From Nitratiruptor sp. YY08-10 (GTDB lineage: Bacteria > Campylobacterota > Campylobacteria > Campylobacterales > Nitratiruptoraceae), in the NCBI RefSeq assembly GCF_016629565.1, contig NZ_AP023057.1, forward strand, positions 1,178,001 through 1,242,000: a stretch of 64,000 nucleotides of DNA, read 5' to 3'. The notes under the pieces were generated by a model. The model was not told where the DNA came from. It did not search any database and worked only from the letters and a program-made list of their open reading frames with translations. The translations under genes and the position numbers were made by a program. Positions within the stretch are counted from its first letter, which is position 1; every line of letters starts with the position of its first letter. Shown in pieces: positions 36,692 to 55,763 of this stretch.

Positions 36692-38463
36692 TCATCCTTT
36701 TTATGTTGTTCTTCAGATAGTATACACAAATTTCTTTCTAATTCCTCTTTATATTTATGAAAATCCATATGACGGACAATTTGGCCATGTTCCATAAAAA
36801 ATATTTCGTCAGCTTCTTGAATGGTGCTTGGCCTATGAGCAATTAAAAGCGTGGTCCGACGGCTGAAAAAATCTTTTAATGCACAAAAAAGAAGTTTTTC
36901 CGTCTCCATATCAATAGCAGACGTTGCCTCATCCAAAATCACGACTGCTGGATCTTGCAAAATCATCCTAGCAATTGCTATTCTTTGTCTCTCTCCCCCA
37001 CTCAGTCTCACCCCACCTTTGCCAACAACTGTCTGTAATCCATCAGGCAGTTTTGCTACTACATCATAAATTTGAGCTAGTTTTAAAGCTTTTGTGACCT
37101 CTTCTTCTTTAAAATCTCTTCCAAGAGTTACATTAAACCAGATGGTATCATTAAATAGCACTGGCGTTTGAAGCACTAACATCACATTTTCTCTAATAAC
37201 ATCTAGACCGATTCTTTTATAAGAGATGTCATTATAAAAAATATCTCCTCTATCTGGCTCATAAAAGCCTACCAAAAGCCTACTAAGTGTCGTTTTGCCA
37301 CTGCCACTTGCACCAACTATCGCTGTTATTTTTTCGGCTTCAATTTTTAAATCAATCCCTTTTAGCACAGGCTTATTTTCATAATACTCAAACCACACAT
37401 CTTTGAGTTCAATTTGAACTGGTGTTTTTTTAAATGGATTATTTATATGAGGATAATTTGGCTCATTTTTTAGCATCAAAAGCTCATTAATTCTTTGAAG
37501 AGCTATATCGGCACTCTTTTTTGTATAAATGATATTAATTAAATCTTGAATTGGTATCATCATAAACCACAAATACCCAAATACAGCTAACATCAGTCCG
37601 ATAGAAAGATTACTGTATGCAACTGCAATAATACCAGCAGCTCGAAAGATTTCAAAGCCAGCTACAAAGAGTAAAAAACTTACTCTAGCACCTGCTTCGC
37701 TTTTATAGGAAAAAGCAATTGATTTGTTTTTAATCTCTTTTGCCAAGAAAAAAAGATTTTGAAAAAAGTATCGCTCTTTATTGACAGCTCGGATTTGATC
37801 AAAAAGCTCCAACGTCTCTGTTAGAGCATTTTGAAATATCTCGATAGAGAGATTTTCTTGTTTTTTCAGTTTTGCCACATTTCTTGCAAGTTTGCTTGAA
37901 AAAACAACTACTAAAGGATTTAAAAAAATTATAAACAGCGCTAACTGCCAATGAATCCAAACTAAAACTATACAAACTCCAACAAGCGTTAAAAGACTTA
38001 TCAAAAACTTGCTAATTCCAGAACTTAAAAAGGTATCAATCGTTTCAATATCTGTAATAAGCCTTGAAACAACTTTACCGCTTCCAAGAAGCTCAAACTC
38101 TTTCAGTGCCACCTTTTCTAAATGCTCTAAAACCCTCTTTCTTAGATTGTAACTAATCGTTTTGGATATTGTTTGAAACACTCTTATTTGCATCACTTGC
38201 AAAAAAACATACATTCCCCGCAAAATAAGCGTCAATGCCAAAACAATGAGTGTGTAATATAGCGGTGATCCACTGCCAAAAGTTACATCAATAAAAGCAA
38301 TAAGTTTACCTGGTTTATGAAGCAATACCTCATCCACAAGCAAAGGCATCAAAAGAGGCGTTGGCACACTGGCAATAACAGCTAAAAGGGCAAAAATCTG
38401 CCCTAGCAAAAAGGCTTTTTTATGTTTTACAATCTGTTTATAAATAGTTTGCCAACTATACAT
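36688..38463 (-). CDS. ABC exporter, fused permease-ATPase (MsbA-like)
   Basis: A 591-aa half-transporter. Six membrane helices occupy residues 15-300; the ATPase domain follows with Walker A VGASGSGKTTLS near residue 375, Q-loop LQTPVLFN, signature RLSGGERQRIAIARM near 478, Walker B AVVILDEATSAID near 500 and the switch His in LLIAHRPST. The type covers lipid A flippases (MsbA), glycan flippases such as PglK, and peptide exporters; substrate cannot be told by eye. It is far from the pgl cluster, and its neighbours are a multiheme cytochrome and hemH. It overlaps the cytochrome gene by 8 bases. Confidence 0.88.
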   Translation of the reverse strand: MYSWQTIYKQIVKHKKAFLLGQIFALLAVIASVPTPLLMPLLVDEVLLHKPGKLIAFIDVTFGSGSPLYYTLIVLALTLILRGMYVFLQVMQIRVFQTISKTISYNLRKRVLEHLEKVALKEFELLGSGKVVSRLITDIETIDTFLSSGISKFLISLLTLVGVCIVLVWIHWQLALFIIFLNPLVVVFSSKLARNVAKLKKQENLSIEIFQNALTETLELFDQIRAVNKERYFFQNLFFLAKEIKNKSIAFSYKSEAGARVSFLLFVAGFEIFRAAGIIAVAYSNLSIGLMLAVFGYLWFMMIPIQDLINIIYTKKSADIALQRINELLMLKNEPNYPHINNPFKKTPVQIELKDVWFEYYENKPVLKGIDLKIEAEKITAIVGASGSGKTTLSRLLVGFYEPDRGDIFYNDISYKRIGLDVIRENVMLVLQTPVLFNDTIWFNVTLGRDFKEEEVTKALKLAQIYDVVAKLPDGLQTVVGKGGVRLSGGERQRIAIARMILQDPAVVILDEATSAIDMETEKLLFCALKDFFSRRTTLLIAHRPSTIQEADEIFFMEHGQIVRHMDFHKYKEELERNLCILSEEQHKKDE

Positions 38464-39550
38464 GGAACTCTTTTTTCTTAAAGACTATAAATTTTGTTGG
38501 GAGTCCAAACTTTTTAGCCATCTTTGGATTCACTTTATAAAAACCAAATATTATCTCTATGGTATATCCTTTTTTAGGATGCAAATCAAAAGTTACTACT
38601 CTTTTCTCGCCTGCTTTTAGCATCGTGTCTTTTACCACCTCAGTTGCTACCCAAGGAGGAGTTGGTTTGCCATCTTTTCCAATAATTCGTACAAATGTAA
38701 GCTCTTGCTCTTTTAAAAGCTTGCCTCCTCGCTTATGTTTTACAATAAGCTTTGCCAAACGCAATGGATGGAGTAAAAACGCATGCGGTGCGTCGTTTGT
38801 TAGGCGAATTTGAAGAGGATCTTTTTTTATTAAATCTATATGAAGATATTTTGCTAAAAATTCTGGCTTTATACTTACTCCTGCAAATCCATGAAATGCG
38901 TGCGTTGGTGTCTCAACGCGATCGCTAAGGTTCCCTTCAACTTGGGGCATATGGCAGGTTATGCAGTTTTGCTTCAGAGTATTGTTATTCTCAGTTTGGC
39001 ATACAACAAACCCATGCTCATTTTGTTTATGGGAGTGGCAGCCCATGCAAGTTTCGCCATTTTTGTGGATTGGATTGGTATTGATGATTTTATGGTATTC
39101 ACTTCTTACTTCCGGATTGCGCGTTCCATAATAAACCCCTTTTTTAGGTAGTATCTCATTTTTATTTGCTTTGGCATGCTTTTCAATAGATTTGATTCTA
39201 TGACAATAGGCACAAGAAATTGCCTGCTCATATCCAAATTTTTTTGGATCCATAGAAGCGATTCTTTTATCTTTGAGAGTCGGAGTGTGGCATTTCGCAC
39301 ATACATACTCTTTTGCTTTACTTGCTTTTGCGTGTAACTCAAAAATCTTTTTATGGACAGGATCTCTGTAAATTGTGGAGTTAAAGTGAGGAGATGTTTT
39401 ATACTCATCATAGATATCAAGATGGCAACGAATACATTGATGGGTTTTGGCGAAGTCCCCTTTGATATCCATTGAGTGTTTGGTAGTACTTCCTGCAAAG
39501 ATATTGGCATAAGCCCATACGGCAACTCCCAAAAGAATCAGACGTCTCAT
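38456..39550 (-). CDS. Pentaheme c-type cytochrome (cytochrome c554-like), paralog 1
   Basis: A 364-aa periplasmic protein with a signal peptide (about residues 1-20) and five CxxCH heme sites at residues 39-43, 84-88, 113-117, 168-172 and 196-200. The heme part resembles cytochrome c554 (H-x-x-Y near heme 1, THAFHGFAG after heme 5). A C-terminal domain of about 130 residues without hemes has GKDGKPTPPWVATEVVKDTM. A second gene at 54675-55763 encodes a clear paralog with identical heme spacing order. Redox partner and substrate are unknown; nitrogen or sulfur respiration are possibilities. It overlaps the deacetylase gene by 4 bases. Confidence 0.88.
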   Translation of the reverse strand: MRRLILLGVAVWAYANIFAGSTTKHSMDIKGDFAKTHQCIRCHLDIYDEYKTSPHFNSTIYRDPVHKKIFELHAKASKAKEYVCAKCHTPTLKDKRIASMDPKKFGYEQAISCAYCHRIKSIEKHAKANKNEILPKKGVYYGTRNPEVRSEYHKIINTNPIHKNGETCMGCHSHKQNEHGFVVCQTENNNTLKQNCITCHMPQVEGNLSDRVETPTHAFHGFAGVSIKPEFLAKYLHIDLIKKDPLQIRLTNDAPHAFLLHPLRLAKLIVKHKRGGKLLKEQELTFVRIIGKDGKPTPPWVATEVVKDTMLKAGEKRVVTFDLHPKKGYTIEIIFGFYKVNPKMAKKFGLPTKFIVFKKKEFHV

Positions 39551-40455
39551 AGCTCATCCTTTGTAAGTTCTTCCAGTGTGACAGCTACACTTGTCGCTAA
39601 AGAATCAAGGTTATACCCACCCTCTAATAAAAAAGCCACTGGCTTATCACCTGCAAATTGCAAGATTTTTTGCACTAATGCCCGCAAACCCTCAAATGTA
39701 ATCTGTGCAGTTGATATCGCTTCATCCCTCATCAAATCATATCCGGCACTCACTAGCACTATATCAAAATCAAACCATTTTGGAAGATCTTCATAAAGCT
39801 TCAAAAGCTCTTCATCTTTGCAGTAATCCCCATATGGCCTGTTGATATTAAAACCCTCGCCTTTTCCTTCTCCTTTTTCTTCTACGCTTCCGGTAAAATA
39901 GGGATAATTGTTGTGCTCATGCGTGCTAAAATAACACACTGTATCATCGCTATAAAAGATATCTTGCGTGCCATTTCCATGATGCACATCAAAGTCTATT
40001 ATCATCACCTTTCTAAATCCTTTGCTTTGCGCATACCTCGCCATCAACGCAACATTGTTAAAGATGCAAAACCCTTGTCCCGTTCTTCTTTCGGCATGAT
40101 GACCTGGAGGGCGAATATTGAGAAATGCTCTTTTGATTTCATCACTTGTAAAAGCATCGATAATTGGCATCGTCGATCCTGCTGCATAGCTTGCAACCTC
40201 AAAGCTTTTTGGAGTTAAAAGCGTATCTTCGTTTAAGATAAAACGGTACCCTTCTTCATAGGCTCTCTCAACCCACTCTACATAGTGCGCTTCATGTATC
40301 TTTTTCAGATCCTCTTTGCTGGCTTTTTTTATAGGAAAACGCTTTAAAGGAAAATTACGCGCTACTTCATCAATCACTTCTACACGTGCAGGCCGCTCAA
40401 TATGCTCATCGCTTCCATGTTCAGTAAATATTGGATCGTAGACGTAGCCTACCAT
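39547..40455 (-). CDS. Histone-deacetylase-family (class II-like) amidohydrolase
   Basis: A 302-aa zinc hydrolase. All signatures are present: RPPGHHAE near residue 133 (catalytic His pair), FCIFNNVALMA, IIDFDVHHGNGTQDIF near 175 (zinc Asp and His), VSAGYD near 253 (zinc Asp) and LLEGGYN near 288. In bacteria such enzymes remove acetyl groups from small polyamines or from proteins; substrate is unknown. It is embedded between the cytochrome (4-base overlap) and hemH (1-base gap), so it is cotranscribed with them. Confidence 0.9.
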   Translation of the reverse strand: MVGYVYDPIFTEHGSDEHIERPARVEVIDEVARNFPLKRFPIKKASKEDLKKIHEAHYVEWVERAYEEGYRFILNEDTLLTPKSFEVASYAAGSTMPIIDAFTSDEIKRAFLNIRPPGHHAERRTGQGFCIFNNVALMARYAQSKGFRKVMIIDFDVHHGNGTQDIFYSDDTVCYFSTHEHNNYPYFTGSVEEKGEGKGEGFNINRPYGDYCKDEELLKLYEDLPKWFDFDIVLVSAGYDLMRDEAISTAQITFEGLRALVQKILQFAGDKPVAFLLEGGYNLDSLATSVAVTLEELTKDEL

Positions 40456-41386: not shown

Positions 41387-42411
41387 CTCTTTCCTTTTTT
41401 CAAGTAGCGTATGAAATATCGATCCACATCAAGTTCCCAAGGAATGGGACAGTTTCCGATCAAATGATCACTCAGTATTTTAGCCACAAAGGGACCAAAA
41501 ACAAAACCTCTGCCACCAAGACCATTGATAATATAGATACCTTTGCGTGGCATTTGAGATAGATCCAATCTTTTAAAATTGGTTATACGGGGTACTTTTT
41601 TTGTATCAATCAATTCCCCAATGATTGGGAGATGATCGTTGACGCTACTGCGTATGCCGCAATACATCTGTTCAATTTCATAGGAAAACTCTCCTACTAC
41701 TTTTTTCGCCTCATCAAACAAAAAAGATGGGGGTTGAGGCTTGGATGGAGATTCAAGCCTTTGATGCGTTGCCCCAATTGCAACGATACCATCGATATTG
41801 GCCGAGACTGAAACCTTTTGATGGATCGAATATGGTAAAGCTAGCTTGGTGCGAACATCGAATCGCACGCCACTTGTTTTCCCAATCGTTACATAGGGCT
41901 CATCGATCAGCTGATCCCATGCCCCGGTAGCCAAGATAACCTTTTTTGCTTGCAAAGCGCCGACTTGGAAAAAATCTCCTTTTTTCTCAATTGATGCTTC
42001 AAAAAAAAATGTATCGATATTATGTAAAAGGTGTTCTAAATAAGGTTTTGCTTTAAGTATACCGGCTTTTGGAAAGAAAAAGCCATTTGCTTTTTTCTCA
42101 TATTCAATATCTAAATAGCGCTCTAATCCTTCAAATGTCTCATTTTCCTTAGGAAGTCTTAGAAGTCCAGTTTGATAAAAATAGCGTGATTGTTCATATC
42201 GTTTTACAGTAAACCGAAAAGCCTCATTTGTCCATCGCTGAATAGGACCACCTTTGCCAATGCGAGGCGTGATAAACGCCCCTGCAGCACCACTGCCCCC
42301 GGCAGCTATATCGCTTTGCTCTACAACTGCAACTTTTACACCAGCTTTTTTTAAAAAATAGGCAGTATGTGCGCCGGCACTCCCCGCCCCTATGATAAGA
42401 AAATCGTACAT
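41383..42411 (-). CDS. FAD-dependent oxidoreductase, DAO family (MnmC C-domain/glycine-oxidase-like)
   Basis: A 342-aa flavoenzyme. The N-terminal FAD-binding motif is IIGAGSAGAHTAYFLKKAGVKVAVVEQ; next comes GGSGAAGAFITPRIGKGGP, close to the GGSG-x-A-G-A segment of the MnmC oxidase domain that works on the tRNA wobble uridine; the C-terminal YIINGLGGRGFVFGPFVAKIL is also MnmC-like. MnmC in E. coli is a fusion of methyltransferase and oxidase; here only the oxidase half exists. A simple amino-acid oxidase is the alternative. It shares one base with glyS. Confidence 0.75.
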   Translation of the reverse strand: MYDFLIIGAGSAGAHTAYFLKKAGVKVAVVEQSDIAAGGSGAAGAFITPRIGKGGPIQRWTNEAFRFTVKRYEQSRYFYQTGLLRLPKENETFEGLERYLDIEYEKKANGFFFPKAGILKAKPYLEHLLHNIDTFFFEASIEKKGDFFQVGALQAKKVILATGAWDQLIDEPYVTIGKTSGVRFDVRTKLALPYSIHQKVSVSANIDGIVAIGATHQRLESPSKPQPPSFLFDEAKKVVGEFSYEIEQMYCGIRSSVNDHLPIIGELIDTKKVPRITNFKRLDLSQMPRKGIYIINGLGGRGFVFGPFVAKILSDHLIGNCPIPWELDVDRYFIRYLKKGKR

Positions 42412-44447
42412 TACACGCTGATCTCTTTAATGTCAGCTATCTCTTTAAAAGCTTTATAGATTGAGGCAATCAGATTTTTTCTGTTTTGACGCAAACGTTC
42501 ATCTTCAGCATTGACCAAAACATTGTCAAAGAAAAGATCGATATCATGCTTGAGGCCAAAAAGTGCATCTAAACGGGATTCATAATCTGGATATGATTTT
42601 TCGTATACTTCTTGAAACCGATCCCAAAGCCTTTTTTCATAATCGCTTTCAAAAAGATTTTCATCTACTGGAGTCTCTTTTGATACATCCACATCTTTGA
42701 CAATGTTCGCAACTCTCTTGAAAGTGGTAAAAATATCTTTAAAATCGCTGCTTTCTACAATTGCGGCCAATGCTTTAATTTTCTTGTCTATTTGAACAAG
42801 ATCTCTTTCACCACTCTCAATAACTGCTTTGATCACAGATGGATTGACATCATAAAATTGATTAATCCGCTCAATAAAGAAGTTTTCTAACTTTTTCGTA
42901 TCAAAATCTTTGTACTCACTCTTAATCTCATCAAAAATCTTTGAAATATCAAAATCAAGATTATAGGCTAACACAATTCGAATCACGCCATTTGCTGCAC
43001 GTCGCAATCCAAAAGGATCTCTTGATCCTGTTGGAATTTTTCCTACACTAAATAGAGCCATCAACGTATCAAGTTTTTTTGATAAAGCAACGATCGCACT
43101 AAAAAGCGTTGAAGGAAGCTCACTCTCTTCCCCGCTCGGCAGGTACTGCTCTTTGATAGCAAGCGCTACCACTTCATCTTCACCCTGCGCGAGAGCGTAG
43201 TAATAGCCCATAATCCCTTGAAGCTCTGTAAATTCATAGACCATTTCTGTAAGCAGATCTGCGTAACTGAGCATGATAGCACGTTCCAATAGTGCCTTTG
43301 TAACACCTGGTTCGCTAAAAAGCGCATTATAGTGTTCTAAAAGATGGTTAGCAATTTTGAGTTCACGTACCTCTTTATCAAAAAGTGTTCCAAGCCCATC
43401 CATAAACACTACATTTTCAAGCTCTTCGAAATTGAGTCCTTTTTTGAGATCATTTTCCCAAAAAAAGAGGGCATCGGAAAGTCTGGCTTTTAGTACCCGC
43501 TCGTTTCCTTTAACAATCAGCGAAAAATCATCTGTATAGGCATTGCTAACAAAAACGAATCCATTTTGCAATTTCCCCTCTTTATACACAGGGAAATAGC
43601 GCTGATGCTCTTTCATACTGGTTACGATAACCTCAGGAGGAAGTTGCAAAAACTTCTCTTCAAAACTTCCTTTCAAAGCCGTCGGAAACTCTGTGATAGC
43701 AACAACCTCAGCAAGAAGGTTTTCATCTTTTTCTATAACAACTCCCTCTTTCTCAATATTTGCAAATTCTGCATCTATCTTTTCATATCGAGCCTCAGGA
43801 AAGAGAAGCACACCGCCATTCTTCAGCTTCTCAAAATACTCTTTTGCATTCGCCACTTGGACCGGTTCAGTAGATACGCTTCTATGCAAATAGGTATAGT
43901 TGGCGGTAGTAATGCCAAAAAGTTCAGCTTTGATAAAACTTTCACCAAGATTGATAATCCCCCACCGAATAGGTCTAATAAAAGAATCTTTCAAATTTCC
44001 CCATCGCATAGATTTGCCAAAATCGAGGGATTTGAGCCACTCATAGACCATCCCTGGAAGTATTTCGACAGATGGCTTACCAGCTATCTCTTTTTTATAA
44101 TATAAAATCTCAGTTGAACCACGTTTTGTTGTTGACAACTCTTCCACACGTACACCGCATTTTCTCGCAAAACCGGTTGCAGCAAGCGTCGGCTGACCAT
44201 CTTTAAAAGCTATGTGAAGCGGGGCTCCAAAAAATTCCTGATAGGTAGTATCTTGTTTCGTTTTAAAATTTCGATGCCACAAAACCAATCTTCTTGGAGT
44301 ATAGAAAAATTCAAATTCACATAAAAGACCATTGGCTTCGAGGATCTTTTCCCATTTTTTCTCAATATTTGGAAGCTCTTTCAAAAAAGGAATTGCAGGA
44401 AGCTCTTCGACGCCTATTTCGATCAGTAAAGGCTCTGTCATCATCAC
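42411..44447 (-). CDS. glyS: Glycyl-tRNA synthetase beta subunit
   Basis: A 678-aa beta chain of the alpha2-beta2 class II GlyRS. The N-terminus TEPLLIEIGVEELPA and PRRLVLWHRNF near residue 50 are family marks; SMRWGNLKDSFIRPIRWGIINLG, TSMKEHQRYFPVY near 285, and GSRDPFGLRRAANGVIRI near 470 follow, then a C-terminal anticodon-binding DALR-like part. The alpha subunit gene glyQ is not in the window. The exact start is one of three adjacent codons (GTG 44447, ATG 44444, ATG 44441) after AAAAAAGGG. Confidence 0.95.
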   Translation of the reverse strand: MMMTEPLLIEIGVEELPAIPFLKELPNIEKKWEKILEANGLLCEFEFFYTPRRLVLWHRNFKTKQDTTYQEFFGAPLHIAFKDGQPTLAATGFARKCGVRVEELSTTKRGSTEILYYKKEIAGKPSVEILPGMVYEWLKSLDFGKSMRWGNLKDSFIRPIRWGIINLGESFIKAELFGITTANYTYLHRSVSTEPVQVANAKEYFEKLKNGGVLLFPEARYEKIDAEFANIEKEGVVIEKDENLLAEVVAITEFPTALKGSFEEKFLQLPPEVIVTSMKEHQRYFPVYKEGKLQNGFVFVSNAYTDDFSLIVKGNERVLKARLSDALFFWENDLKKGLNFEELENVVFMDGLGTLFDKEVRELKIANHLLEHYNALFSEPGVTKALLERAIMLSYADLLTEMVYEFTELQGIMGYYYALAQGEDEVVALAIKEQYLPSGEESELPSTLFSAIVALSKKLDTLMALFSVGKIPTGSRDPFGLRRAANGVIRIVLAYNLDFDISKIFDEIKSEYKDFDTKKLENFFIERINQFYDVNPSVIKAVIESGERDLVQIDKKIKALAAIVESSDFKDIFTTFKRVANIVKDVDVSKETPVDENLFESDYEKRLWDRFQEVYEKSYPDYESRLDALFGLKHDIDLFFDNVLVNAEDERLRQNRKNLIASIYKAFKEIADIKEISV

Positions 44448-44475: not shown

Positions 44476-44586
44476 TTAGTTTTCATCTCGCTTATGATGC
44501 CCCTTTTGATGATGATAACCCACAATAAGCCATATCATAAAAAGAACAAACGCCACTGTCATGATACCATCTACAATCTCTTTCAT
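44476..44586 (-). CDS. 36-aa single-helix membrane protein with His-rich tail
   Basis: A small frame below usual ORF cut-offs. It begins with ATG at 44586, eight bases after a good Shine-Dalgarno (AAAGGGG), and ends TAA at 44476-44478. The protein starts MKEIVDGIMTV, has one membrane helix (about residues 8-23, ending MIWLIVGY), and a tail YHHQKGHHKRDEN with four histidines. Good RBS, hydrophobic helix and positive-charged cytosolic tail argue for a real gene. It lies 28 bases before glyS in the same direction and divergent from the gene at 44612. A metal-binding or complex-stabilising role is a guess. Confidence 0.6.
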   Translation of the reverse strand: MKEIVDGIMTVAFVLFMIWLIVGYHHQKGHHKRDEN

Positions 44587-44599
44587 AGATCCCCTTTGT

Positions 44600-44605
44600 T
44601 ATAAT
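44600..44605 (+). promoter_or_regulatory. -10 element (TATAAT) implying a leaderless transcript
   Basis: TATAAT ends seven bases before the A of ATG 44612. With the normal spacing from -10 to +1, transcription begins at the start codon itself. No Shine-Dalgarno can fit between them. Confidence 0.65.
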
Positions 44606-44611
44606 GTCGCC

Positions 44612-45130
44612 ATGACGTATAAAACCCATATCGCATTTGCCGAATCGGTAGCGGTACCACCAATACTGGTATTGTACACACAAAATGCAATTTCCTATTT
44701 TGACTTACAAAATTTCATTATAGCCGTTGCTGTAGCGGCACTTTTGCCAGATCTAGATCATTTACACTCATACATTTCCAAAAAGATACCTATTCTACCG
44801 TTTATTATCACGCTGTTTGCAAAGCATAGAGGATTCACACACTCTCTCAAAGGAATAATTTCTGTCTATATTCTGACGATGCTTGCATTCATACCTCATA
44901 TCATACCTCTTAGCATTGCTGCAGGCATCATGATTGGATACCCTTTACATATTTTGGGAGATGCCATGACAACTCGAGGTATCAGCAACTTTTGTTGCGG
45001 TAAAAAACTTCTTATTCTTCCAAAACCCCTTCGCTTCTCCACAGGGTCATTCAAAGAGCATCTCTATTTTCTTTTTTTCTCAGGACTCATAGGTTTAGAA
45101 ATTTGGTTGATTAATCCATCTCTTTTGTAA
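44612..45130 (+). CDS. YdjM-type membrane-bound metal-dependent hydrolase (DUF457)
   Basis: A 172-aa membrane protein with four or five helices. The family motifs are present: YKTHIAFAES at the start, AALLPDLDHLHS near residue 47 (D-x-D-H), KHRGFTHSL near residue 70 and IGYPLHILGDAMTTRG near 110. These His and Asp residues suggest a metal site at the membrane. Start: the frame is open from 44561, but the -10 box at 44600-44605 places the RNA start at or just before ATG 44612, so translation is probably leaderless. Converges on trmL, overlapping it by 20 bases. Confidence 0.82.
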   Translation: MTYKTHIAFAESVAVPPILVLYTQNAISYFDLQNFIIAVAVAALLPDLDHLHSYISKKIPILPFIITLFAKHRGFTHSLKGIISVYILTMLAFIPHIIPLSIAAGIMIGYPLHILGDAMTTRGISNFCCGKKLLILPKPLRFSTGSFKEHLYFLFFSGLIGLEIWLINPSLL

Positions 45131-45581
45131 ACGCTTCAAAATTTTGCCGTATCCCTTCATATACGACAATGCCGACACTCACTGCTAAATTCAGACTTCG
45201 TCCCTCTTTTGTCATCGGGATAGTTACTGCATGCTCCCAATGTTTTTCCAAGAGTTCCATCGGTAAACCCTTTGTTTCATTCCCAAAAAAAAGAAAATCT
45301 CCCGGTTGGTATTTGACTTGAAAATAGGGCTTACTACTTTTTGTGGTTGCAAAAAATGCTCTTGAAAGATTACAATTGTGCAATAACTTATCAAGAGAAT
45401 CCCACACCTTCAACTCAAGCTTGTCCCAGTAATCAAGTCCAGCTCTTTTCACTGCTTTTTCGCTAATATCAAACCCAAGGGGTTTGACAAGATGCAAAGT
45501 TGAACCTGTATTGACACAAAGCCTTCCGATATTACCAGTATTGGGTGGAATTTGCGGATGGACAAGAACAATATTGAACAT
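45111..45581 (-). CDS. trmL: tRNA (cytidine/uridine-34-2'-O)-methyltransferase TrmL
   Basis: A 156-aa SPOUT methyltransferase acting on the wobble base of leucine tRNAs in E. coli. NTGNIGRLCVNTGS near residue 14, FGNETKGLP near 100, and IPMTKEGRSLNLAVSVGIVVYE near 128 are the three SpoU motifs forming the knot. Length equals E. coli TrmL. It shares one base with the purU stop region. Confidence 0.93.
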   Translation of the reverse strand: MFNIVLVHPQIPPNTGNIGRLCVNTGSTLHLVKPLGFDISEKAVKRAGLDYWDKLELKVWDSLDKLLHNCNLSRAFFATTKSSKPYFQVKYQPGDFLFFGNETKGLPMELLEKHWEHAVTIPMTKEGRSLNLAVSVGIVVYEGIRQNFEAFTKEMD

Positions 45582-54490: not shown

Positions 54491-54682
54491 ATGGGTAGTT
54501 GGACCTGTTCTCACCAAATCGGGGAATATTGTGATCTTTTGAAAAAGCCGTGCGATCCGGGAGACAAAGGGTGTGTGCTGTATGGAAAAGCGCTTTTTAG
54601 CAATCCCCAGACACCGAGTAACGAAGCGTTGAAACGAAGAGAAGAGATCGCCAAAAAACGGAAGGAGCGTGGATATGAATAG
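54491..54682 (+). CDS. Small four-cysteine protein
   Basis: A 63-aa cytosolic protein. Cysteines lie at residues 6, 14, 21 and 28 (C-x7-C-x6-C-x6-C), enough for one zinc or iron-sulfur site. The C-terminal half is a charged helix (ALKRREEIAKKRKERGYE). AAAAAGGAG precedes the ATG. It overlaps the cytochrome gene by 8 bases, so it is coexpressed with it, and a role in cytochrome handling is possible but unproven. No family recognised. Confidence 0.65.
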   Translation: MGSWTCSHQIGEYCDLLKKPCDPGDKGCVLYGKALFSNPQTPSNEALKRREEIAKKRKERGYE

Positions 54683-55763
54683 AGTATGGTTGTTAGTGGC
54701 TACGGCTTGCGCCCTTTTTGCTTCCCATTTCGCACCAAACAGTGCCTGTAAAGAGTGCCATCCGTTGATTTACAAAGAGTATCAAACCAGTCAACATGCC
54801 AATGCCACGATCTTTAAAGATCCTATCCACGCTGCAGTCTGGAAGAAAAATCCACTGCACAAAAAAGGGGCCTACAAATGTGCCAAATGTCACACTCCAG
54901 CTGCGAAAAATTTCAAACAGCTCATTCAGCCAAACGGGATTGGCCCTGATCCAAAAGATCCAACACAAAATGACGCAGTAGCCTGCGCGTACTGCCACCG
55001 AATTAAAGCGATCAAAGAGGATCTCAAAACGAATCACAATATCATCAGCAAAACACCAAAAAAATATTTTGGCACAAGAAAAGATCACATCAAATCACCG
55101 TTTCATGAAATCGACACATCCAATAAACGTTTCTTGCAAGGAAACGTCTGTATGGGATGCCACTCTCACAAACGAAACAAATTTGGTCTCAACGTCTGCT
55201 CAACCAATCCTCACAGGGAGATAGAAAACGCCAACTGCGTCAGCTGCCATATGCCAAAAATAGCAGGAAGTGTCTCAACACTTAAAAAAAGAAAAACACA
55301 CGCATTCCACGGATTTGCAGGAGCTCATTCACATAACAAAATGCTTGCACAATATGTGGATATCGAGTTTTTACCACATCTCAAAGGTTTTGAAATCGCC
55401 ATCAACTCTAAACTTCCTCATGACCTTTTACTTCATCCGGCACGAGTAGCCTTTGTAAAAACAGTCGTAAAAAGAGATAAAAAAACAGTATTTCAAAAAA
55501 CAGAGATCCTTGTTCGCATTTTGGGAAAAGACGGCAAACCAACACCACCGTGGCTAGCACAAGAGGTAGTCAAAGACACGATGCTCAAAGCAAATGAAAA
55601 AAAAGTCTTCAAATATGGCTTTGCGCTCAAAAAAGCAGACAAAGTCATCGTAATCCTTGGATACAGGCTGGTGAAACCACCACTTGCCAAAAAACTTGGA
55701 ATCAAAGCTCCTGAAGCAACAAAACCGATCATTTTCAAAAAAGCGGTCTTTACAGTGAAGTAG
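54675..55763 (+). CDS. Pentaheme c-type cytochrome (cytochrome c554-like), paralog 2
   Basis: A 362-aa periplasmic protein with signal peptide (about residues 1-19) and five CxxCH sites at 25-29, 69-73, 104-108, 159-163 and 188-192. It is a paralog of the gene at 38456: shared CAYCHRIK, CMGCHSHK, CHMPK-type fifth heme, THAFHGFAG, and the C-terminal LGKDGKPTPPWLAQEVVKDTMLKA segment. Start ATG 54675 has AAGGAG at 54662-54667; GTG 54669 is too close to it. Here the partner gene is a four-Cys protein and not an exporter and hemH. Confidence 0.88.
   Translation: MNRVWLLVATACALFASHFAPNSACKECHPLIYKEYQTSQHANATIFKDPIHAAVWKKNPLHKKGAYKCAKCHTPAAKNFKQLIQPNGIGPDPKDPTQNDAVACAYCHRIKAIKEDLKTNHNIISKTPKKYFGTRKDHIKSPFHEIDTSNKRFLQGNVCMGCHSHKRNKFGLNVCSTNPHREIENANCVSCHMPKIAGSVSTLKKRKTHAFHGFAGAHSHNKMLAQYVDIEFLPHLKGFEIAINSKLPHDLLLHPARVAFVKTVVKRDKKTVFQKTEILVRILGKDGKPTPPWLAQEVVKDTMLKANEKKVFKYGFALKKADKVIVILGYRLVKPPLAKKLGIKAPEATKPIIFKKAVFTVK

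Follow-up and report, generated by a model that had tools for sequence, protein, structure and literature searches.

The window, which is the whole stretch of 64,000 nucleotides from Nitratiruptor sp. YY08-10 that was analysed, contains a genuine gene under coding selection at positions 44476-44586 of the minus strand. These coordinates include the stop codon. The frame, taken from the listing of open reading frames (ORFs) in the window, has 36 codons with an ATG start and a TAA stop, and its predicted product is the microprotein MKEIVDGIMTVAFVLFMIWLIVGYHHQKGHHKRDEN, which has one predicted helix and a basic His-rich C-terminal tail. The first-pass annotation held that proteins of this kind are overlooked because of their length, and at 36 amino acids this one is short enough to escape annotation. 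As far as our searches show, it belongs to an uncharacterised microprotein family that is widespread in the Campylobacterota. We consider it probable, if modestly so, that it is a single-pass membrane microprotein which serves as a small accessory or regulatory subunit, with its helix packed against a larger membrane protein.

The gene is preceded by the Shine-Dalgarno sequence AAAGGGG (44591-44597, minus strand), which ends 4 bases 5' of the ATG. Read along the minus strand, the order is AAAGGGG (44597-44591), ATCT, and then the start codon, in agreement with the strong Shine-Dalgarno that had been reported, and an AGG or GGA core is present no more than 20 bases 5' of the start in 20 of 20 members from the Nitratiruptor family. 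The gene for the beta subunit of glycyl-tRNA synthetase, glyS (42411-44447, minus strand, PF02092), is located 28 bases downstream and has as its listed start the GTG at 44447. On the other side there are 25 bases between the start of the microprotein gene and that of a divergent YdjM-family gene (44612-45130, plus strand, PF04307), with 44612 being our own reading of the latter start. These two gaps confirm the placement between glyS and a divergent gene described in the first-pass annotation. The YdjM-family gene separates the microprotein gene from a gene for a SpoU-type methyltransferase (45111-45581, minus strand, PF00588), which we take to be trmL. In relatives, glyS is commonly found downstream of the microprotein gene and trmL is commonly found upstream.

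Frame length by itself is no proof of a gene, as 111 ORFs of at least 25 amino acids overlap the surrounding 9.5 kb. It is the conservation of the frame that exceeds chance. An absence of conservation in relatives, or an excess of frame-breaking changes, had been named as what would speak against the gene. When the comparison was made, a protein search (E<=1) matched the microprotein in 21 of the 22 genomes of the Nitratiruptor family, with best E-values of 1.2e-10 to 1.2e-21, and the frame was open in 20 of 20 genes, with the other two frames on that strand open in 0 of 20 and 1 of 20. The only genome without a match is G012, where glyS starts at the edge of a contig and the trmL match is truncated at another such edge, so the expected site is outside the assembly. 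The codons of 20 complete genes from the family were compared (105 bases each, 190 pairs; the gene of G004, which is cut by a contig end, was left out), and this resulted in a mean pN of 0.165, a mean pS of 0.798 and a pN/pS of 0.207. Constraint is strongest in the tail, with a pN/pS of 0.092 compared to 0.269 for the helix. Differences in the family amount to 0.52 at third codon positions, 0.23 at first positions and 0.12 at second positions, and the gene in the window is separated from its nearest relative by 8 synonymous changes and 1 non-synonymous change. The antisense frames are open in 16, 2 and 0 of the 20 genes; although the first of these is mostly open, the excess of third-position changes identifies the sense frame as the one under selection.

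The distribution of the family was examined with two profiles. A profile built from 27 members matched 187 of 398 genomes of the order at E<=0.01, in 42 of 87 genera, and a more diverse profile built from 32 members matched 230 of 397 genomes of a phylum-level sample at the same threshold, in 44 of 68 genera, the members of each profile matching it by construction. The genomes listed from the phylum-level sample are all of the same order, and 147 genomes without a match are not among them. One short pattern retrieved 22 loci from a collection of 84,980 species, assigned to Campylobacterales, Campylobacterota, Epsilonproteobacteria, Nitratiruptor or Hydrogenimonas, although a search of this kind is hardly informative on distant lineages. 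Outside the Nitratiruptor family, the nearest family (f4) goes with Hydrogenimonas, and the carriers in f11 and f9 are probably relatives of Campylobacter and Arcobacter, judging from gene content. The genomes sampled from f14, f16, f13, f2 and f3 (the last three with one genome each) gave no convincing match. Twenty genomes, also including f1, f6 and f15, were checked for the neighbouring genes; glyS was present in 20 of 20 and trmL in 16 of 20, and among the hydrophobic frames of 22 to 110 amino acids before glyS or after trmL in these genomes none had the family pattern by eye. Some lineages have both neighbours and lack the microprotein, which is therefore not essential throughout the phylum. 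Two weak matches in f15, L147 (E 4.7e-4) and L154 (E 0.007), resemble the microprotein in the segments FYIIRGYHLQK and IYIIRGYHRQK and are located on contigs other than those of glyS and trmL; from their sequences they may be distant members. The remaining weak profile matches were set aside as unconvincing, several having internal stops or lying inside long frames.

Where the contigs of the Nitratiruptor family show it, the gene order is purU - trmL - microprotein - glyS. The trmL gene is visible in 19 of the 20 complete family loci, and in 12 of these 19 its stop overlaps the start of the microprotein gene, in 8 cases by 4 bases, which is how coupled genes typically overlap. The other gaps between the two are 1 and 20 bases (two loci), 146 and 178 bases (two loci) and about 520 to 650 bases in three loci that carry the YdjM-family gene. 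This gene is found beside the microprotein gene in 4 of 21 family loci (L001, L002, L014 and L015; the contig of L014 ends before trmL); it is oriented against the operon and seems to be a lineage-specific insertion. Other genes intrude at other loci, for example a presumed endonuclease/phosphatase-like frame or a presumed AGCS-like transporter.

The association with trmL and glyS extends beyond the Nitratiruptor family. Neighbours were counted at 82 loci, which are distinct frames at E<=1e-6 that were picked among good matches rather than at random and include many close relatives; among the matches listed, L147, L148, L149, L150, L154, L164, L026, L028 and L029 were dropped because their E-values are above this threshold. 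At 74 of the 82 loci the microprotein gene is accompanied, on its own strand, by trmL upstream, glyS downstream or both, and at 71 one of them is a close neighbour. Both genes are present at 32 loci, only trmL at 23, only glyS at 19 and neither at 8, with some loci, including some of the last 8, being cut by contig ends.

This neighbourhood could suggest that the microprotein acts at the membrane together with GlyS or TrmL, assisting in the charging or modification of tRNA. In favour of such a role, the association is kept even where trmL and glyS have parted, the overlaps of the trmL stop with the microprotein start suggest coupled translation and also fit a joint role with TrmL, and at locus L110 the microprotein gene is found between frames that we assume, by resemblance, to be rsfS and rpsA. 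However, the microprotein stays with either neighbour alone, and the simplest account, which explains the pattern without any function, is that trmL - microprotein - glyS was the ancestral order and that one half or the other was kept. Neither neighbour is found at the 8 loci mentioned above, and the genomes of several lineages have both genes with no microprotein found. We regard a role in tRNA charging or modification as quite unlikely, and the neighbourhood is probably an old operon rather than a sign of a function in translation. Because the frame is small, hydrophobic and directly before glyS in many lineages, a leader peptide or a type I toxin could also be considered in place of a working protein, but conservation is at the amino-acid level, 23 of the 82 loci have trmL but no glyS in the stretch covered, and the gap to glyS in the window is merely 28 bases. 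In addition, each genome has one strong match at a recurring place, unlike what is seen for mobile or toxin genes. A leader peptide or toxin is for these reasons very improbable.

The likeliest function, a helix that packs against another membrane protein, draws on the features of the helix itself. The first-pass annotation had claimed one membrane helix; AlphaFold2, run on the single sequence, predicts one helix at residues 2-34 (mean pLDDT 86), and the sequence has a hydrophobic stretch, from which we infer its insertion into the membrane. By the positive-inside rule, the protein would be single-pass with the N-terminus outside the cell and the basic tail in the cytoplasm. In an alignment of 32 diverse members, F13 and G23 are invariant, D6 and F16 are conserved in at least 90%, V14, L15 and M17 are common, and Q accounts for 70% by weight at position 27. 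In all three ranges tried, the periodicity of conservation is strongest at 100 to 104 degrees per residue, with P at 100 degrees being 0.044 for residues 6-27 and 0.077 and 0.079 for the two other ranges. This borderline signal hints that the conserved positions D6, F13, F16, G23 and Q27 tend to one face of the helix, and it is this tendency that makes packing against another membrane protein the likeliest function. The conserved face, in which Q27 is frequent, would pack against the partner.

Searches of protein families and structures are consistent with a family that has not been described. The protein of the window has no match above the curated cut-off in Pfam or NCBIfam, and no PDB sequence matches the profile of the microprotein at E<=1. 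Single other members gave weak and scattered matches, the best with E-values of 7.6e-5 (DUF3149, two members) and 2.2e-4, among 53 Pfam and 46 NCBIfam unrelated families of which the best 25 of each were listed; in our judgement these are generic helix matches. KdpF, MgtS and AcrZ are small single-pass regulators of membrane proteins that are presumed to act by helix packing, and set beside them by description the microprotein is alike in size, in its single helix and in its presumed packing. Unlike these proteins, it has no Pfam or NCBIfam match above the curated cut-off and no known partner. A search for a partner by co-occurrence, in which cydA and ccoQ were tried, found none.

The size and form of the microprotein also resemble those of the one-helix subunits of terminal oxidases, and a subunit of the CcoQ or CydX/CioY type was considered on these grounds. 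CcoQ/FixQ (PF05545), the small subunit of cbb3 oxidase, shares with the microprotein a helix close to the N-terminus and a charged C-terminal tail, and it is present in the same genome in a different gene neighbourhood; the microprotein is encoded between trmL and glyS and not with the cbb3 oxidase genes. In genome G000 the FixQ match is at C1:1572611, about 350 kb from the microprotein gene. An hhalign comparison of the microprotein with the CcoQ of the same bacteria gave a probability of 56 over the helix, but 10 of 200 profiles with shuffled helix columns scored as high, so that the similarity does not clearly exceed what helix composition gives. The reversed profile scores 20.3 against 25.0. 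A CcoQ paralogue is not supported, and PF05545 was neither matched by the protein of the window nor present among the best 25 listed of the 53 Pfam families obtained with the 32 members. A FixQ match over the cut-off was found in 24 of 31 relatives, and the carriers of the same family that have none (G004, G006, G007 and G008) are less than 90% complete; for this reason cbb3 oxidase may still be a partner. For the bd-type oxidase, cydA (PF01654) was not found in 22 of the 31 relatives, including eight same-family carriers with a completeness of at least 98%; of all 18 carriers from that family in the set of 31 genomes, 14 gave no cydA match. A dedicated bd-oxidase subunit was rejected as many carriers are without a detected cydA. 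Since the genome has its own CcoQ as well, we hold a terminal-oxidase subunit of either type to be unlikely.

CioY and CydX, the small subunits of bd-type oxidases, are similar to the microprotein in having 30 to 40 amino acids and one helix and in having been overlooked for their size. In the sections covered of a census of small proteins in Campylobacter jejuni (PMC11955535), CioY was found downstream of the bd-type oxidase genes, whereas the microprotein is at trmL and glyS, also in genomes without a detected cydA. The main text of that census, to which the search was confined, contains no occurrence of glyS. A literature search turned up nothing on this microprotein gene, and it is unnamed in the portions covered of PMC11955535, PMC12795558 and PMC1557499.

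The His-rich tail of the frame is present as the first-pass annotation described it. In the Nitratiruptor family, H25, H30 and H31 are invariant in 20 of 20 genes and position 26 is H in 13, R in 6 and I in 1. Outside this family the cluster is not kept: the H30-H31 pair is found in 9 of 9 Nitratiruptor-family rows of alignment A2 and in 0 of the 23 other rows, and position 25 in these 23 is H in 10 and otherwise N, I, M, F or Q. Tails of other members read GYHANKYEERYG, GFNKQMNEKNRKR or GFMLQSQEKNR. It had been proposed that the His cluster could bind metal or heme, and such binding might serve the nearby hemH and cytochrome genes. Both of these are indeed downstream on the strand of the microprotein, with hemH (PF00762) being the third gene and the five-CXXCH protein at 38456-39553 matching Cytochrome_C554. 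The invariant histidines and the tail pN/pS of 0.092 also agree with ligand binding. However, the putative ligand residues are conserved throughout the Nitratiruptor family and not throughout the microprotein family, H26 varies even inside the former, and the links that hold across families are those to trmL and glyS. As a general function, the binding of metal or heme does not fit the members outside the Nitratiruptor family, and a service to hemH and the cytochrome genes appears improbable. The tail is under very strong constraint within the Nitratiruptor family, and a metal role specific to this lineage is possibly the reason. In the window a second five-CXXCH frame is found at 54633-55763, on the strand opposite to that of the first.

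For the preferred reading, a helix packed against a larger membrane protein, the histidines H25, H30 and H31 would add a lineage-specific contact in the Nitratiruptor family, possibly with a metal or with the membrane surface. In a bolder form, a central membrane complex of the Campylobacterota would have the microprotein as an accessory subunit throughout the phylum and the H25/H30/H31 tail of the Nitratiruptor family would be a metal-responsive switch, which we see as a long shot. If this were true, an accessory subunit found across the phylum would have been overlooked owing to its length. A gene conserved to this degree in a well-studied phylum, and lacking any convincing curated-family match, offers a concrete target, and its placement at glyS or trmL together with the invariant residues of the helix makes a knock-out and a pull-down in a laboratory strain straightforward.

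The gap between the divergent starts (44598-44612) contains TTATAAT, a near-symmetric -10-like element that can be read on both strands. ATTATA-like sequences are also present 5' of the start in the other loci that carry the YdjM-family gene (L002, L014 and L015). Going by its sequence, the element in the window could be a shared bidirectional promoter with very short leaders.
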